A stretch of DNA of 64,000 nucleotides. Origin: Rhodospirillum centenum SW. GTDB taxonomy: Bacteria > Pseudomonadota > Alphaproteobacteria > Azospirillales > Azospirillaceae. Positions 34,155-43,300 of the stretch are shown here, piece by piece. Numbering within the stretch: position 1 is the stretch's first letter; the number at the start of each line of letters is the position of its first letter. The translations under genes were made by a program, and so were the position numbers. The DNA lies in the NCBI RefSeq assembly GCF_000016185.1, contig NC_011420.2, forward strand, positions 1,942,501-2,006,500, written 5' to 3'. The notes under the pieces were generated by a model that was not told where the DNA came from, made no database searches, and saw only the letters and a program-made list of their open reading frames with translations.

Positions 34155-34571
34155 ATGCTGCCGCAAGGACCGGCGCCGATCAAGCGGCGGGGCCTTCTGG
34201 CTGGCCTGGCCGGGCTTGCCGGTGGACTGATCGCCCCGCGCGCAACCCAGGCAGCGGCAGCCCCGTCCGCCCCGATCCTGCTGCTGGAAAGCCAGGTCGC
34301 GGGCACAGCCTATTACGATGCAGGCAAACTGCTGAAGGGATTGTCGCCGGGGCAGCGCCTGACCCTGCGCCGTCAGCCGGACAACAGGCATGACGGTCTG
34401 GCCATCGAGGTGCTGGTGCCTGACGCCGGCAAGCTGGGCTACGTGCCCCGGATCCACAACCAGCCGCTGGCGCGACTGATGGATGCAGGCAAAGTCCTGC
34501 ACGCCGAAGTATTGGCTCTGACTCCGCAGGAATGGGAAAAGGTGCGGATCCAGGTCTGGATGGCAGGGTGA
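34155..34571 (+). CDS. Exported HIRAN-domain protein at the head of the cas operon
   Basis: 138 aa. Residues 1-36 look like a Tat signal (IKRRGLLAGLAGLAGGLIAP, ending in TQAAAA). The rest is one HIRAN domain: LLESQVAGTAYYDAG, LKGLSPGQRLTLRRQPDNRHDGLAIEV and KLGYVPRIHNQPLARLMDAGK. HIRAN domains of Rad5/HLTF bind single-stranded 3' DNA ends; in bacteria they also occur as short free-standing proteins. An export signal on such a domain is unexpected. The stop is five bases before the cas3 start, so co-transcription is very likely. Start ATG 34155 after AGGAGGG. Confidence 0.85.
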   Translation: MLPQGPAPIKRRGLLAGLAGLAGGLIAPRATQAAAAPSAPILLLESQVAGTAYYDAGKLLKGLSPGQRLTLRRQPDNRHDGLAIEVLVPDAGKLGYVPRIHNQPLARLMDAGKVLHAEVLALTPQEWEKVRIQVWMAG

Positions 34572-34576
34572 CGGGT

Positions 34577-37233
34577 ATGGACGGTTTCGCACAGAACTTC
34601 AAGGCGTTGACCGGACATTCCCCTTTGCCCTGGCAATGCCGGCTGTATAGCCGGTTCCGGCAGGGCGACGTGCCGCCGGCCCTGGATCTGCCGACCGGCC
34701 TGGGCAAAACCTCCGTCATGGCGATCTGGCTGGCAGCGAAGATCGCCGGGACGCGCCTGCCCACCCGGCTGGTCTATGTGGTGGACCGGCGCGTGGTGGT
34801 GGATCAGGCGACGGAAGAGGCGGAGATGCTGCGCCGGAATGCCATGGCACATGGCCTTCTGCCTGACCTGCCCATCTCCACCCTGCGCGGTCAGCATCTG
34901 GACAACCGGCGCTGGATGGAGGACCCGACGGCGCCGGCGATCATTGTCGGCACGGTGGACATGATCGGCTCGCGGCTGCTGTTCCAGGGCTATGGCGTGT
35001 CCGCCGGCATGCGCCCGTTCCAGGCCGGGCTGCTGGGAGTGGATACGCTGGTGGTGCTGGATGAGGCCCATCTCTGCCCGCCCTTCCAGGCGCTGCTGGA
35101 GCGGATCGCGGCCCGGAAAGGCCTGGGCCCGGCAGAAAGCCTGGGGCCGGATGCGGGGCTGCTGCCGCCGTTCAGGCTGCTGCCCCTGTCAGCCACGGGA
35201 CTGCTGCCCCTGTCAGCCACGGGAAAGAACGCCGATGGCGCTTTCACCCTGGAGGAAGAAGACGAAAAGGACAGCTTCGTCCGCGACCGGCTGACCGCCG
35301 GCAAAAGCCTGACCATCGCCCCCTCCGACGGCAAGCTGGAGGACGGGCTGGCCCGGGAAGCGCTGGCCCTGGCCGACAGCGCCGGTGGCCGCATCGCCGT
35401 CTTCTGCACCAGCCGTGAGGTGGCCCGGAAGGTGGCCGACCGGCTGGTCGACAGGAAGGCGGGACGCCCGCGCGAAGCGGTCGTGCTGCTGGCCGGCGCC
35501 CGCCGGGTCCATGAACGGGAACGGGCCAGGGACGAGCTACAGGCAACCGGCTTCCTTCCCGCCAGGAAAGATCAGTCCGCCCTGTCCCCGCCTACGTTCC
35601 TGGTCGCCACGGCCGCCGGTGAGGTGGGGATCGACCTGGACGCCGACCATGCGGTCATGGATCTGGTGGCGGCGGAGCGGATGATCCAGCGGCTGGGCCG
35701 CGTCAACCGCGCGGGGGGCCAGGGCCGGCTGGCCCAGGTGCGGGTGATCGACGCCGCACCGGAGAAGGAGAGTGCCGAGGCCCAGGCCCGGCGGCAGGCT
35801 TGCCGGCAGTTGCTGGAAAGCCTGCCGATCCGCAGCGATGGCGGCTTCGACGCCAGCCCCGGCGCCCTGCTGACCCTGCGGAAGGACCGCAAGCTGCTGG
35901 ACCGGGCCAGCACCCCGGCCCCGCTGTACCCGGCCCTGGACCGGCCGACGCTGGACGCCTGGGCCATGACCAGCCTGAAGACCCATCCGGGCCGGCCGGA
36001 TGTGGCCCCCTGGTTGCGCGGCTGGGTGGAGGAGGACGATCCGGAGATCACCCTGATCTGGCGCCGCTGGCCCTGGGACGAGCAGCATCGGCTGCCCGAC
36101 CCCAAGGTGCTGCAGGACTATTTCGAGGCGACCAGCCCCCGCCTGCTGGAACGGCTGGAAGTGCCCCGCTCCCTGGCCCAGAAGGTGCTGACCGAGCGGG
36201 CCAGGCGGGTGGATCTGGGCGAGCAGGTCCCGGTGGTGCTGGCCCTGGGCGACCGGGTCGAGTGGCTGACCTTGGGCGATCTGCGGGACAAGCGGCAGCG
36301 CGACCGCTTCTTCGAACGGCGTTCCGCCGACACGGTCTTCGTCGTCTGCCACCATCTGGGCGGGCTGGATGAGCATGGCCTGCTGTCCGACGATGCCGCC
36401 GGCCCGGTGCCCTGCCTGGATGATGGCTGGGACGATGAGGTCCTGAAAAATGCCGGACTCCGCATCGTCTTCGACGAAGCGGGCGAAGCGTCCGGGAGTG
36501 AGGGAAAAGGCGGCTGGCGGCAGGTGGACCGGATCGACCTGACCGATCCCCAGCGGCCGGATGCCGAACGGTACCTGTCCATCCAGGTCTGGCGCGATAC
36601 GGACCGGGAGACGGGCGGTGATCCGGCCGTCCGGCGGCGGGAACAGTTGTTGACCGAGCATCTGCGCGAGGCGGAGGAGGAAGCGGGCGGGCTGGCCAAA
36701 CGGCTGCACCTGCCTGCCCCCTACCGGGACCTGCCTGCCCCCTATCGGGCCATGCTGATGGCGGCGGCCAAGGCCCACGATCTGGGCAAGCAGCGGCCGC
36801 ACTGGCAGCGGGCCATGGGGGCGCCGCGGGGCGGGGAACCCTACGCCAAGACCACCGGCAAGGGCGCCACCCCCGCCCTGCTGCGCATCAACGGAGAGAC
36901 CTACCGGCACGAGTTCGGCAGCCTGCTGGACCTGGAACGGGCGCCGGAGGTTCTGGCCGGGCTGGACGCGGGTCTGAAAGACCTGGCCCTGCATCTGGTG
37001 GCCGCCCACCACGGGTACGCCCGGCCCTGGATCGCCCCCGTCGATCCCGACTGGGAGATGTCCCTGGCCAGCCACCGGGAACGGGCGGCCGCGGCGGCCC
37101 TGCGCTTCGCCCGGCTTCAGGCGACATGGGGCCCGTGGGGGCTGGCCTGGTGGGAAGCGCTGCTGCGGGCCGCCGACCAGCGGGTGTCGCGCCGGCTGGA
37201 CCAGGATGCGCAACCGGCCGAGGAGACGGCGTG

Positions 37234-37234
<1 letters not shown>
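34577..37234 (+). CDS. cas3: Type I-G Cas3 helicase-nuclease
   Basis: 885 aa effector nuclease-helicase that degrades DNA unwound by Cascade. Helicase comes first and the HD nuclease last, the order of subtype I-G (former I-U). Walker A PTGLGKT at 39-45; DEAH at 162-165; motif III SAT, present twice (205-207 and 213-215) because of a 24-bp tandem duplication; motif VI region MIQRLGRVNRAG. The HD domain has H734/D735 (AKAHDLGK), HEFGSLL and H811/H812 (AAHHGYARP), then ADQRVSRR. A second 21-bp duplication (HLPAPYRDLPAPYRA) lies just before the HD motif. Frame is open throughout; whether the duplication in motif III is tolerated is unknown. Confidence 0.95.
35176..35223 (+). repeat. 24-bp perfect tandem duplication in cas3 helicase motif III
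   Basis: The 24 bases beginning CTGCTGCCCCTG occur twice in a row (35176-35199 and 35200-35223), adding eight residues so that LLPLSATG is read twice. In frame. Confidence 0.95.
36708..36749 (+). repeat. 21-bp tandem duplication next to the cas3 HD motif
   Basis: Two adjacent 21-base units (36708-36728, 36729-36749) differ only at one pyrimidine (ACC vs ATC), giving L-PAPYR-D-L-PAPYR-A. In frame, seven codons per unit. Confidence 0.9.
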
Positions 37235-39194
<1,960 letters not shown>

Positions 39195-39230: not shown

Positions 39231-41477
39231 ATGGCCGACCGTGCCCTGTTGATCGAGGTGACGCTGCTGGACGCGCGGTATCACGGCGTCGGCGACTGGC
39301 CGCCCGCTCCCTGGCGCCTGTTCCAGGCGCTGGTGGCCGGGGCCCATGGTGGGCGATGGGCGGCGGAGGACGCAGACGCCAAGGATCAGGCCCTCCAATG
39401 GCTGGAGACCCTGAATCCGCCCCATATCGCCGCCCCGCCGGCCGTTCGAGGGGCGGAGACGACCTATTACGTCCCAAACAATAGTCTGGATGCCAAAGGC
39501 GGCGATCCCGACCGGGTCGCGGAACTGCGCGTGCCAAAGCGGGTCCGCCCGACCCTGCTGGACGGTGAGCCGCGGCTGCTCTACGCTTGGCCCTATGACC
39601 GGGCGGATGAGGGGCTGGCGCGCATCATGGCCGGTCTGGCCGACCGGCTGCACACGCTGGGTCGGGGCATCGACCCGGCCTTCGCCCGCGCCGAGCTGCT
39701 GGACTGGTACGAGGCGGAAGAGCGGCTGCGCGCCCATGGCGGGACCGTCGCCCGGCCCGACAACAGACCCGGACGTCCGGACAGGGACCCGGGCTGCCCC
39801 GAACCCGGATCGCTTCTCAGCCTGAAACAGCGCTTCGCCGCCACCCGCCGGCAATATCAGCCGGGAAAGGAAGGGCGGACCCGGACGCTGAATTTCGCCC
39901 GGCCGCCCAAACCCGCCTTCCGCACCATCGCTTACGACCGCCCCCCCGCCCGCACCCTGTACGAGCTGCGGCAGGAAGACGGGCGGTTCCATCCCTGGCC
40001 GCTCTGGCGGGCGGTGGAGCTGACCACCCGGCTCCGCGATCTGGCCGCGGCGGTGCTGACACGGCGCCTGAAGGACCACGCAGCGCAGATCGACCGCTTC
40101 CTGGTCGGGCGGGAGGCCGGGCCGGCGGACAAGGACCGCCGGGTGCGGCTGATCCCCCTGCCCTCCATCGGCACGCAGCACACCGACGCCTCGATCCGCC
40201 GGCTGCTGCTGGAGATCCCGCCCGACTGCCCCCTGCCGCGGGATGAGGTGGTCTCCGTCTTCTCCGGCCTGGACCTGCGGCTGGACCCCGCCACGGGGGA
40301 GGTGGCCGACCGGCCGGAGCCGACCCTGGTGGACAGCAGTGATTCGGGCATGACCGGGCAGTACGGGGTCGGATCGGCCGGCGCGCGCCACTGGCACAGC
40401 GTCACGCCGCTGGCCCTGCCGGCCACCCGCCGCCGCCTGGATCCCGGGCGCCTGCGCGATCCGGATGCGCAGGTGCGGGCGCAGGAGTACAAGACCGGCC
40501 AGGAGCGCCAGGACGAGGAAACCCGCGCCCGCGCCGCCGTGCTGGAGGCCTGCCGCCACGCCGGGCTGGACCCCCGCAGCGTCCTGTCCATCCGCCTGCA
40601 ACGCGAGCCGTTCTTCCTCAGGGGAGAGGGGGCGGAGCGCTTCGCCGACGCACGCTTTTCCAGGCACCGGCTCTGGCATCTGGCCATCAGCTTCACCGAA
40701 CCGGTGGCCGGTCCCCTGCTGCTGGGCGACGGGCGCTGGCTGGGTCTGGGCCTGATGGCCCCGGACAAGGGGGCGGCGGTGCAGGCGGACGCCGTGTCCT
40801 ACGGCCTGACCCCGGATGCCCGCCCGCCGCTGGCGGAGGGGGCGGCAGTGACGCGGGCCGTGCGCGCCGCGCTGATGAGTCTGGCCCGCACGCCGGACGG
40901 CGGCGTGCTGCCCCTGTTCTCCGGCCATCTGGACGGGCCGGGACCGGCACGCCCGGGCGAGCACCGGCATGTCTATGTCGCGGTGCTGGATACCGATGGC
41001 GACGGCCGGCTGGACCAGGTGCAGGTGATCGCCCCCTGGCGGGCGGATCGTAGCTTCCGACCGGCAGACAAGGAGAAGGAGACACTGCTGGACGATTTTA
41101 CCCGTATCACCAACCAGTTGCGGCAGGTGCGGGCCGGGGCCGCCGGCCTGCTCTCCCTCTCTCCGCCCCAGGCCCTGCCGGCCGAGCGGGGTCACGTCTG
41201 GACCAGCCGGACCCGCTACCGCCCGACCCGGCATCCGGACTCGGCAGCGGACAGCGCCGCCTTCATCGCCGACGATGTGCGCCGGGAACTCCACCGTCGC
41301 GGCCTGCCGGCGCCGACGGCGATCGAGGTCAGCGACAGCCGGGTCGGGCCGCGCAAGGGCCTGTCCGCCCGCGTCACCCTGCATTTCGCCCAGCCCCTCA
41401 CCGGCCCGGTCCTGCTGGGCCGGGATGCGCACCGGGGCGGGGGGAGGTTCTGCGCAGACAGCCACAGCCCTTCATGA
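39231..41477 (+). CDS. csb2: Type I-G Csb2 (fused Cas5-Cas6)
   Basis: 748 aa Csb2/GSU0054 family protein, which joins a Cas5-like 5'-handle binder and a Cas6-like crRNA endonuclease. N-terminal block LLIEVTLLDARYHGVGDWPPAPWRLFQALVAGAHG is diagnostic. Two glycine-rich RAMP loops are visible, GPLLLGDGRWLGLGLM (about residue 500) and GPVLLGRDAHRGGGRF at the extreme C-terminus. The central part is longer than many Csb2 proteins. ATG 39231 after a AAAGGAGGGG site. A candidate catalytic His could be H398 (ARHWHS) or in the C-terminal loop; not decidable here. Confidence 0.9.
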   Translation: MADRALLIEVTLLDARYHGVGDWPPAPWRLFQALVAGAHGGRWAAEDADAKDQALQWLETLNPPHIAAPPAVRGAETTYYVPNNSLDAKGGDPDRVAELRVPKRVRPTLLDGEPRLLYAWPYDRADEGLARIMAGLADRLHTLGRGIDPAFARAELLDWYEAEERLRAHGGTVARPDNRPGRPDRDPGCPEPGSLLSLKQRFAATRRQYQPGKEGRTRTLNFARPPKPAFRTIAYDRPPARTLYELRQEDGRFHPWPLWRAVELTTRLRDLAAAVLTRRLKDHAAQIDRFLVGREAGPADKDRRVRLIPLPSIGTQHTDASIRRLLLEIPPDCPLPRDEVVSVFSGLDLRLDPATGEVADRPEPTLVDSSDSGMTGQYGVGSAGARHWHSVTPLALPATRRRLDPGRLRDPDAQVRAQEYKTGQERQDEETRARAAVLEACRHAGLDPRSVLSIRLQREPFFLRGEGAERFADARFSRHRLWHLAISFTEPVAGPLLLGDGRWLGLGLMAPDKGAAVQADAVSYGLTPDARPPLAEGAAVTRAVRAALMSLARTPDGGVLPLFSGHLDGPGPARPGEHRHVYVAVLDTDGDGRLDQVQVIAPWRADRSFRPADKEKETLLDDFTRITNQLRQVRAGAAGLLSLSPPQALPAERGHVWTSRTRYRPTRHPDSAADSAAFIADDVRRELHRRGLPAPTAIEVSDSRVGPRKGLSARVTLHFAQPLTGPVLLGRDAHRGGGRFCADSHSPS

Positions 41478-41542: not shown

Positions 41543-41904
41543 ATGGCGGATGATCCGCCCGAGGATGATCCCGAAGATGCGGGGATCGGCGCCCCGGCGC
41601 CCCCGGCCCTGCGGCGATGGCCGATGATGTGCTGGTGCCGGCGCGGATGGTCAATGAATGGGTCTATTGCCCGCGGCTGGCCTATCTGGAATGGGTGGAG
41701 GGCGAATGGGCCGACAGCGGCGACACCGTGAACGGGCGCCGCACGCTGATCCGCGCCTTCGAGCGGCGGCTGGAGCAGGAAGTGACCCACCCCGTCTTCG
41801 GCTATCAGATTTCGACCCGGCGCATGCTGCATGTGCAGGCCCGGCTGCTGGCCAAATCTCTGCGCGGCGAGATCCCGGCCTATCCGCACTACATCCCCCG
41901 CTGA
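41543..41904 (+). pseudogene. Remnant of the cas4-cas1 fusion gene with a large internal deletion
   Basis: The readable frame from ATG 41617 (95 codons) joins a Cas4 N-terminus (LVPARMVNEWVYCPRLAYLEWVEGEWADSGDTVNGR, with the first Fe-S cysteine in YCPRLAY) directly to a Cas1 C-terminus (TLIRAFERRLEQEVTHPVFGYQISTRRMLHVQARLLAKSLRGEIP). Intact Cas4-Cas1 fusions of subtype I-G are around 550 aa, so some 450 residues, including the Cas4 nuclease core and all Cas1 metal ligands but none of the frame, are gone. The true start is probably ATG 41543 (behind GAGGGAG, reading MADDPPEDDPEDAG), which is one base out of frame with the Cas4 part. Confidence 0.85.
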
Positions 41905-41924: not shown

Positions 41925-42224
41925 ATGGCAGCACGCAATGAACGGCTCTACATCGTGACCTACGACATCGCCGACCAGAAGCGCTGGCGGCGCGTGTTCC
42001 GGGTCATGGAGGCCTATGGCCACTGGCTGCAGCTGTCGGTCTTCCAGTGCCGGCTGACCGCGCGGCGACGGGCCGCCCTGGCCATGCGCCTGGACCGCGA
42101 GATCAAGCCGGCGGAGGACCATGTCCTGATCCTTGACGTGGGGCCGGCCGATGAGGTGGATTTGCGTGTGGAAAGTCTGGGCAAGAGCTTCCAGGCCATC
42201 GTCCGCGAGGCGCGCGTGATCTGA
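41925..42224 (+). CDS. cas2: CRISPR-associated protein Cas2
   Basis: 99 aa ferredoxin-fold protein, structural core of the Cas1-Cas2 integrase. YIVTYDIADQKRWRRVFRVMEAYGHWLQLSVFQCRL carries the conserved Asp14 (YDI) and the LQxSVFxC motif; the C-terminus has the short strand of the I-G-type Cas2. Start ATG 41925 with a GGAGGGG site 12 bases upstream. It is apparently intact although its partner Cas1 is destroyed. The array leader begins at its stop. Confidence 0.95.
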   Translation: MAARNERLYIVTYDIADQKRWRRVFRVMEAYGHWLQLSVFQCRLTARRRAALAMRLDREIKPAEDHVLILDVGPADEVDLRVESLGKSFQAIVREARVI

Positions 42225-42441
42225 CCCCCGGCCCCGGTTGCCGGCCCCGGTTGCGAGCGGTCCGATACCCCCCGAAAGGCGGGACCCGCTCGAATCAAGA
42301 CAAGCCTCTGTTTTTGCTTTTGTTCTTGGACATCGTGAAGTAGAGTTCATGCCGTAAGGCGCAGTGTTGCACCCCCGATACCCGACCCGCTCGACTCCCC
42401 CCGGAAAAGCCAGGGATCGTCAGCAGGTTGGACCAGGGGGG
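42225..42441 (+). promoter_or_regulatory. CRISPR leader
   Basis: 217 bases between cas2 and the first repeat, with an AT-rich patch around 42293-42350 (CTCTGTTTTTGCTTTTGTTC) in otherwise GC-rich sequence. It lies at the 5' end of the array as judged from repeat orientation (repeats end in ATTGAAGC), so it should contain the array promoter and, originally, the integration signal. A direct repeat GGCCCCGGTTGC occurs at 42229-42254. Confidence 0.7.
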
Positions 42442-43300
42442 CTTCCTCGGCCCCTCGGGCCGAGGCCTCATTGAAGCGAAGTCCTTAGGCTCCTGATCAT
42501 AAAACCCGAAGGGGCCTTCCTCGGCCCCTCGGGCCGAGGCCTCATTGAAGCATTCTGTTTCGGACGTCGCTGAACGCCGTCCACGCCGCCCTTCCTCGGC
42601 CCCTCGGGCCGAGGCCTCATTGAAGCTGCCGGACGGTGCCGCAGAAGTCGCGGGCGCCTCGACCTTCTTCCTCGGCCCCTCGGGCCGAGGCCTCATTGAA
42701 GCGACGCCGTCGCTCCACCGTTCGGTGGTGGGGCTCAGGGCCTTCCTCGGCCCCTCGGGCCGAGGCCTCATTGAAGCTCCCGCTGGTTGGCATACGGCTT
42801 GAGGCTAGCGTACAGCCTTCCTCGGCCCCTCGGGCCGAGGCCTCATTGAAGCGCCAGCGTCGGCACCAGCTCGAGAGGTCGGCCGAGCCACTTCCTCGGC
42901 CCCTCGGGCCGAGGCCTCATTGAAGCTGAAGGCCCTCGCCCAGGCCGGCCGCGATCCCGCCCGCTTCCTCGGCCCCTCGGGCCGAGGCCTCATTGAAGCG
43001 CGAGTTCAACGACGGTGCGCGCGACCTGTCCCGGACGCCCTTCCTCGGCCCCCCGGGCCCAGGCCTCATTGAAGCGCCGACAGGTTCTCGTCAGAGATCG
43101 GGGAGAGGGCGATGCCTTCCTCGGCCCCCCGGGCCGAGGCCTCATTGAAGCACCAAATGGCCATGTGCCAAGCCCGTCCAAACGCAAGCCCCTTCCTCGG
43201 CCCCTCGGGCCGAGGCCTCATTGAAGCTCCGATTCCACCGGCATGATCGGTGTCCGGGTGGCGCCTTCCTCGGCCCCTCGGGCCGAGGCCTCATTGAAGC
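42442..43300 (+). CRISPR. Type I-G CRISPR array, 12 repeats and 11 spacers
   Basis: 36-bp repeats starting at 42442, 42516, 42591, 42667, 42742, 42817, 42891, 42964, 43040, 43116, 43192 and 43265. The repeat begins CTTCCTCGGCCC and ends GGCCTCATTGAAGC; inside it CCTCGGCCC and GGGCCGAGG form a 9-bp stem with a three-base loop, the expected Cas6 substrate. Spacers are 37-40 bases. Repeats are identical except number 9 (two changes: T to C in the loop, G to C in the stem) and number 10 (the same loop change). Same strand as the cas genes. Confidence 0.98.

Follow-up and report, generated by a model that had tools for sequence, protein, structure and literature searches.

A type I-G CRISPR-Cas operon of Rhodospirillum centenum with a cas4-cas1 gene that was very probably inactivated recently

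Introduction

What is the short reading frame that stands between csb2 and cas2 in a type I-G CRISPR-Cas operon (CRISPR, clustered regularly interspaced short palindromic repeats) of Rhodospirillum centenum SW? The operon lies in a stretch of 64,000 nucleotides (nt), called the window here, that covers positions 1942501-2006500 of the genome, which is complete in one contig of 4,355,543 bases. It reads, in order, cas3g, csb3, csb1, csb2, the short frame, cas2g and a 12-repeat array. All features of the window lie on the forward (+) strand and are given in window positions. Type I-G was formerly called I-U. From sequence comparison, we consider that the short frame is very probably a recently inactivated cas4-cas1 gene (i.e. 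a young pseudogene) of this operon.

Results

The frame (41617..41904) has 95 codons and a stop codon and is readable only from an internal start. We observed that it is made of the two ends of a type I-G Cas4/Cas1 fusion, 37-42 residues from the N-terminus and then 56-59 from the C-terminus. The profile NF049935 (cas4g_cas1g, 546 positions) matched it in two stretches, model positions 1-37 and 490-546 of 546 in the genome profile search, with a total of 125.9 bits (E 1.6e-36). This is far below the family cut-off of 560, and the E value rules out a chance similarity to Cas4g/Cas1g. The 559-amino-acid (aa) Geobacter Cas4/1 chain 7mi4 was aligned to it through residues 10-44 and 501-559. In the comparison with the nearest intact relative (L040), residues 3-46 were 86% and residues 37-95 were 81% identical to the two ends. 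The Cas4 N-terminal piece spans 41632..41727 (about residues 10-41 of Geobacter Cas4/1), and the Cas1 C-terminal piece with its stop codon spans 41743..41904, as judged from the profile, 7mi4 and a codon comparison. A Pfam search of the remnant gave no useful match, the piece being very short. The type I-G locus of Geobacter sulfurreducens, from which 7mi4 comes, resembles the window in its gene set (cas3g, csb3, csb1, csb2, the remnant, cas2 and the array); compared with 7mi4, however, the remnant is without the 456 residues between the matched ends and hence has neither active site.

The two pieces meet at 41734..41742 (GGGCGCCGC, which encodes Gly-Arg-Arg), a junction that is homologous to both a Cas4 site and a Cas1 site in the codon comparison with relatives. 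The joined sites are the Gly-Arg-Arg after SGDT in Cas4 and the Gly-Arg-Arg before TLIRAFERRL in Cas1, and several intact relatives have Gly-Arg-Arg at both. In all eight intact relatives that were measured, the sites are 458-518 codons apart (1374 nt in four, 1422 nt in two, and 1392 and 1554 nt in one each), always a multiple of three. From these distances, the remnant arose by an in-frame internal deletion of about 1.4 kilobases (kb) that joined the two Gly-Arg-Arg sites. The deletion probably came about by replication slippage or by recombination between short similar sequences. The longest exact in-register run common to both sites was 3-6 nt in the eight relatives, which is shorter than the 9-12 nt seen at the junction of the remnant.

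The original prediction, which was made from the letters of the window, had described a 95-codon frame made of the two ends of Cas4 and Cas1 and had explained it by an internal deletion; the three alignments bear out the first part, and the in-frame join, with the sites 1374-1554 nt apart in the intact relatives, bears out the second. Its further proposal, recombination between short direct repeats, is plausible, but the relatives, whose two sites have no more than 3-6 consecutive nt in common, give no evidence that the ancestral gene had a longer direct repeat. It was mistaken about the start, which it had put at 41543, where the ATG sits in another frame. It also overlooked a second, frame-breaking 5' lesion and an orphan array elsewhere in the genome (both described below).

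Across ten intact relatives, 159 alignment columns were invariant, and 117 of these fall in the deleted part, including (in L040 numbering) E402, H473, D485 and cysteines 198, 201 and 207. From known Cas1 motifs, we take E402, H473 and D485 to be the Glu-His-Asp active site of Cas1, and all three are gone. The first Cys of Cas4 is retained, while C198, C201, C207, H56, D98 and K113, which are presumably the core and cysteine residues of Cas4 (again from known motifs), lie in the deleted part, leaving the four-cysteine core incomplete. The deletion thus removed the Cas4 nuclease core, three of the four conserved cysteines and the active site of Cas1. For the type I-G Cas4/1 of Methanosarcina barkeri, active-site mutants E101 and E375 have been published (PMC10504553).

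A second lesion lies at the 5' end. The start region reads ATGG(T/C)GGA(T/C)GATC in the relatives L040, L049 and L046, and the same start is found in the window at 41543; by this likeness, the ATG at 41543 is the ancestral cas4-cas1 start. The frame from this ATG (41543..41731) now gives 62 codons of out-of-frame peptide and then a TGA at 41729-41731. All 12 relatives inspected carry a QxxLx(L/F) peptide (e.g. QLSLALPAP) before the Cas4 core, as read by eye, and this N-terminal QxxLxL peptide is absent from the window (41543-41616). This second and smaller lesion shifted the original start out of the reading frame and took away the conserved peptide. ATG 41543 has the element GAGGGAG upstream, and the internal ATG at 41617 lacks any preceding purine-rich element. 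An internal start of this kind, together with the lost peptide, speaks for a pseudogene, and the gene has more than one inactivating lesion, namely the internal deletion and the 5' frame break.

Several observations weigh against inactivation. Of the 42 invariant residues in the kept region, 39 are still present (the N-terminal peptide accounts for two of the losses, and one Arg has become Lys), and the join preserved the reading frame, for which the chance was 1 in 3; a constrained small protein would show the same. Both cas2 and the leader are intact, the eight leader-proximal repeats of the window array are identical, and the array itself shows no sign that acquisition stopped. Moreover, one genome of the genus was compared, so that fixation of the deletion is not demonstrable. 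The 95-residue product could thus be a functional small protein, e.g. a partner of Cas2 or a brake on another Cas1, as its open frame and its two well-conserved ends would allow. The kept pieces are, however, parts of two separate domains, and the ancestral start that has the GAGGGAG element is out of frame. In addition, the two-ended pair of matches was not seen at any further locus, either in 82 genomes of the family (an order-level search returned the same 82) or among 385 genomes sampled from the class, in the latter with at most three candidates scored per genome. We therefore regard a functional small protein as very improbable.

How old the damage is was judged from unique changes, by outgroup. 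The 87 kept residues of the remnant have 3-5 such changes as against 2-3 in the intact G069 and G075, and Cas2 has two of 95 here as against four in the intact sister genes, so that the age estimate rests on small numbers of substitutions. There is no sign of long decay, and with so few unique changes in the kept parts, the lesion would be young, or else the ends are under constraint.

Loss of this gene is also seen in the relatives. Csb2 was found in 16 of the 82 family genomes and Cas3g above its cut-off in 12. In these 12, cas4-cas1 was intact in six (G003, G022, G024, G036, G049 and G069), broken in five (G000, G021, G031, G039 and G045) and absent near Csb2 in one (G030); G000 is the genome of this window, so that the five broken cases include the present one. 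The four genomes that have Csb2 without Cas3g above the cut-off are G056 and G075, with intact cas4-cas1, G061, where cas4-cas1 is divided between two contigs and changes frame, and G078, which has no cas4-cas1 and whose own Csb2 is partial. The intact family loci (G069, G075, G036, G003, G022, G024, G049 and G056) have the same operon type as the window, but their cas4-cas1 is whole (about 567-643 aa, depending on the start chosen), whereas the window has the two ends only.

The damaged loci of G039, G045, G021 and G031 resemble the window in having Cas3g above the cut-off and a whole csb2 beside a broken cas4-cas1, but their end points differ from those of the window deletion. Three of them (L042, L043 and L048, in G039, G045 and G021) are other deletions of I-G adaptation genes. 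G039 has an in-frame join between Cas4 (at ...RAHARV) and Cas1 (at ...RKGDLLV), with a stop codon in addition; it has lost Cas4 residues only, and its Cas3g match is without model positions 591-654 (about 64). In G045, Cas4 residue 109 runs directly into Cas2 residue 16, and in G021, Cas1 residue 497 runs into Cas2 residue 5 (tblastn positions). The gene of G031 has frameshifts and reaches the contig end; since this is a draft of 1140 contigs, the frameshifts could be errors. In the class sample, the gene of G422 changes frame near position 490, and in G326 the match was confined to positions 241-546, the 6 kb retrieved giving no Cas4 pattern. With five broken genes and one absent among the 12 Cas3g genomes, the loss of adaptation beside kept interference genes thus recurs in the family by different events and is fairly ordinary.

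These relatives also bear on the quality of the sequence. Plasmid and fosmid clones were the source of the R. centenum SW genome sequence (PMC2890560), and a toxic gene that is whole in the cell could have been lost from the sequenced clones. Against such an assembly or cloning artefact stand the 9.7x coverage, drawn from three libraries that differ in insert size, the finished state of the sequence (PMC2890560), the second lesion in the same gene and the lesions that related species have in theirs. Chromatin immunoprecipitation sequencing (ChIP-seq) reads have been mapped to 98% of the genome (PMC4681086). We consider an artefact to be extremely improbable.

The rest of the operon is whole. 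The helicase-nuclease gene cas3g (34532..37234, 900 aa) is full length (TIGR02621 positions 2-854 of 854, 653 bits), as is csb3, i.e. cas8g (37231..38130, TIGR04106 1-282 of 282). They are followed by csb1, i.e. cas7g (38127..39194, TIGR02570 1-178 of 178), and csb2, i.e. cas5-6g (39231..41477, 748 aa, TIGR02165 1-492 of 492). These four type I-G signature genes all exceed their NCBIfam cut-offs, which makes the locus a member of the type. Downstream of the remnant, cas2g (41925..42224, 99 aa) is intact (PDLC01756 Cas2g 2-95 of 96; Pfam PF09827); of the Cas4/Cas1 fusion and Cas2 that a type I-G locus has, it thus keeps Cas2 whole and the fusion as two ends only. The leader region (42225..42441) and that of the orphan array share 70% identity over 154 nt, and the adjacent array (42442..43300) has 12 repeats of 36 nt, with substitutions in repeats 9 and 10, and 11 spacers of 37-40 nt.

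As the original prediction had noted, another cas1 in the genome might act in trans. No second full cas4-cas1 copy was found in the NF049935 search of the genome, in which the other matches were the Cas1 of a type III-B locus and, weakly, the Cas1 of a type I-E locus, and the cas4 profile TIGR00372 matched the remnant only. The III-B locus (L004) has Cas10/Cmr2, Cmr3, Cmr4, Cmr5, Cmr6-Cmr1, cas1 and cas2 above their cut-offs and a 28-copy repeat family; its cas1 covers TIGR00287 26-327 of 327, and the ninth protein tried there gave no family match. The I-E locus (L005) has cas1e and cas2e above cut-off and arrays of two repeat types; its Cas7e and Cse1 were under their cut-offs, and we do not claim a complete I-E system.

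The genome thus holds two complete Cas1-Cas2 pairs, and the III-B (or I-E) pair might write into the I-G arrays, in which case the loss of cas4-cas1 would be of little effect. Such use of a foreign Cas1 has been published for type VI-B, which uses the Cas1 of II-C in trans (PMC8092290). The VI-B system is like the window in having interference genes without a working Cas1 of its own; here, however, the loss would be a recent deletion, and borrowing is hypothetical. The III-B and I-E repeats differ from those of both I-G arrays (by inspection of the repeats), and we consider it unlikely that adaptation is supplied in trans.

The orphan array of I-G type (L072, genome positions 3012115-3015057) has 40 repeats and its own leader. 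We observed that 38 of the 40 repeats are identical and that the other two have one substitution each. The repeat equals that of G069, which belongs to another genus, letter for letter. The genome profile searches gave no Csb2 or Cas4/Cas1 match beside this array.

Returning to the inactivated cas4-cas1 gene, the locus would have lost the ability to acquire spacers through its own proteins and would live on those already stored, i.e. the 11 in cis and probably the 39 in the orphan array of the same repeat type. One I-G operon may serve both sets. Csb2 would make the CRISPR RNA (crRNA), which Csb3, Csb1 and Cas3 would then use. The original prediction had described an interference-only locus in which the interference genes and cas2 are open. 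The profiles show Cas3g, Csb3, Csb1, Csb2 and Cas2 to be whole, and with the core of cas4-cas1 deleted, the description holds for the genes in cis. Of its suggested search for a second cas1 and cas4, the former was found twice (III-B and I-E), but no other cas4 was found by profile.

Discussion

The window deletion is a fresh instance of a known phenomenon, the loss of CRISPR adaptation genes. It offers a natural and apparently young case in which the writing of memory has been lost and the attack genes kept, and in which relatives have lost the same gene in other ways. The locus also suits a direct test of whether III-B or I-E Cas1-Cas2 feeds I-G arrays. No paper on this cas4-cas1 deletion was found in the portions of the open-licence literature covered by our search.

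The N-terminal QxxLxL peptide lost from the window was evaluated in 80 I-G loci from many phyla (L074-L153). The pattern Q-x-x-(L/M/I)-x-(L/M/F) was sought within the 35 residues that precede the Cas4 core, with N-termini read upstream to a stop codon and not from a proven start, and 76 of the 80 could be read. The hexapeptide was present in 44 of these 76, whereas 1000 shuffles gave it in 2.9 on average and in 12 at most. Since the 80 loci were the top-ranking ones of 582 in order of similarity to a query that has the peptide, 44 of 76 is no prevalence, and because the loci are related, the shuffles overstate their independence. In all 44 the peptide lies 19-21 residues before the Cas4 core. 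The strict pattern was absent from the other 32, of which 18, judged by the titles of their records, belong to Deltaproteobacteria, Myxococcota, Planctomycetota or Actinomycetes, and three of the 32 have near forms (QLEFHL twice, QLILPI). The chain 7mi4 has only nine residues before the matched core and is probably without the peptide. In a set of family and class loci, 19 of 26 N-termini could be read, the seven unread including that of the intact G378. Among unfused Cas4 proteins of the same family none of 17 had the peptide, although a wider pattern was used.

The hexapeptide resembles the clamp motifs of Hda and HdaA; QLSLPL of E. coli Hda and QFKLPL of Caulobacter HdaA are required for the interaction with the sliding clamp (PMC3836487). 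E. coli Cas1 foci require active replication (PMC10359635; PMC13244154), and how Cas1-Cas2 locates its DNA has been termed unclear (PMC13244154). In Proteobacteria and some other phyla, then, the I-G Cas4/Cas1 may be tethered to the replisome by this putative clamp-binding QxxLxL peptide, a suggestion that we make tentatively and that is less certain, but more novel, than the deletion. The fixed spacing would fit a structural element as well, which counts against a role in clamp binding. If the suggestion is true, spacer capture would be coupled physically to replication forks in these systems, and the window remnant would have lost its tether together with the catalytic core, adaptation having been shed and interference kept. 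The conserved peptide offers a testable answer to how the adaptation complex finds replicating DNA. No paper that describes a clamp motif for Cas4/Cas1 was found in the parts of the open-licence literature that were searched.

Spacer targets were sought in phage and plasmid collections for both I-G arrays. For the window array, the phage collection yielded a single weak match (84% over 45 nt, E 6e-3; the phage record derives from human faecal samples), and the plasmid collection yielded none. A spacer of the orphan array (3012299-3012338) matched a gene of Synechococcus phage MinM1 that is annotated as hypothetical with a note of the Gp37/Gp68 family (identity of 91% over 46 nt, E 1e-5; without gaps, 33 of 40 letters), and the plasmid matches of this array were four records at 60-80% identity, three of them of Azospirillum thermophilum. 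No protospacer adjacent motif (PAM) was derived, because there is only one imperfect match. Within the genome itself, a DNA search with the window array and its flanks returned the array, the leader of the orphan array and one 31-nt match of 94% (E 2e-4); we read this last match as chance and not as a self-target, its surroundings looking like ordinary coding sequence by eye.

The window also holds a published binding sequence of CgrA, a regulator of cyst development. The sequence listed for locus RC1_1927 in Table 1 of PMC4681086 matches 37777..37792, inside csb3, exactly; it occurs once in the window, where 0.03 occurrences with up to two mismatches are expected. The site ties the I-G interference genes to CgrA. 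The CgrA-binding sequence of the second CRISPR operon of R. centenum maps to the III-B locus. RC1_1927 would be csb1, from its position downstream of the site in csb3. The same table gives RC1_1927, a CRISPR-associated gene, as lower in the cgrA mutant (log2 change -1.38), which supports the expression of an interference gene; interference activity is predicted.
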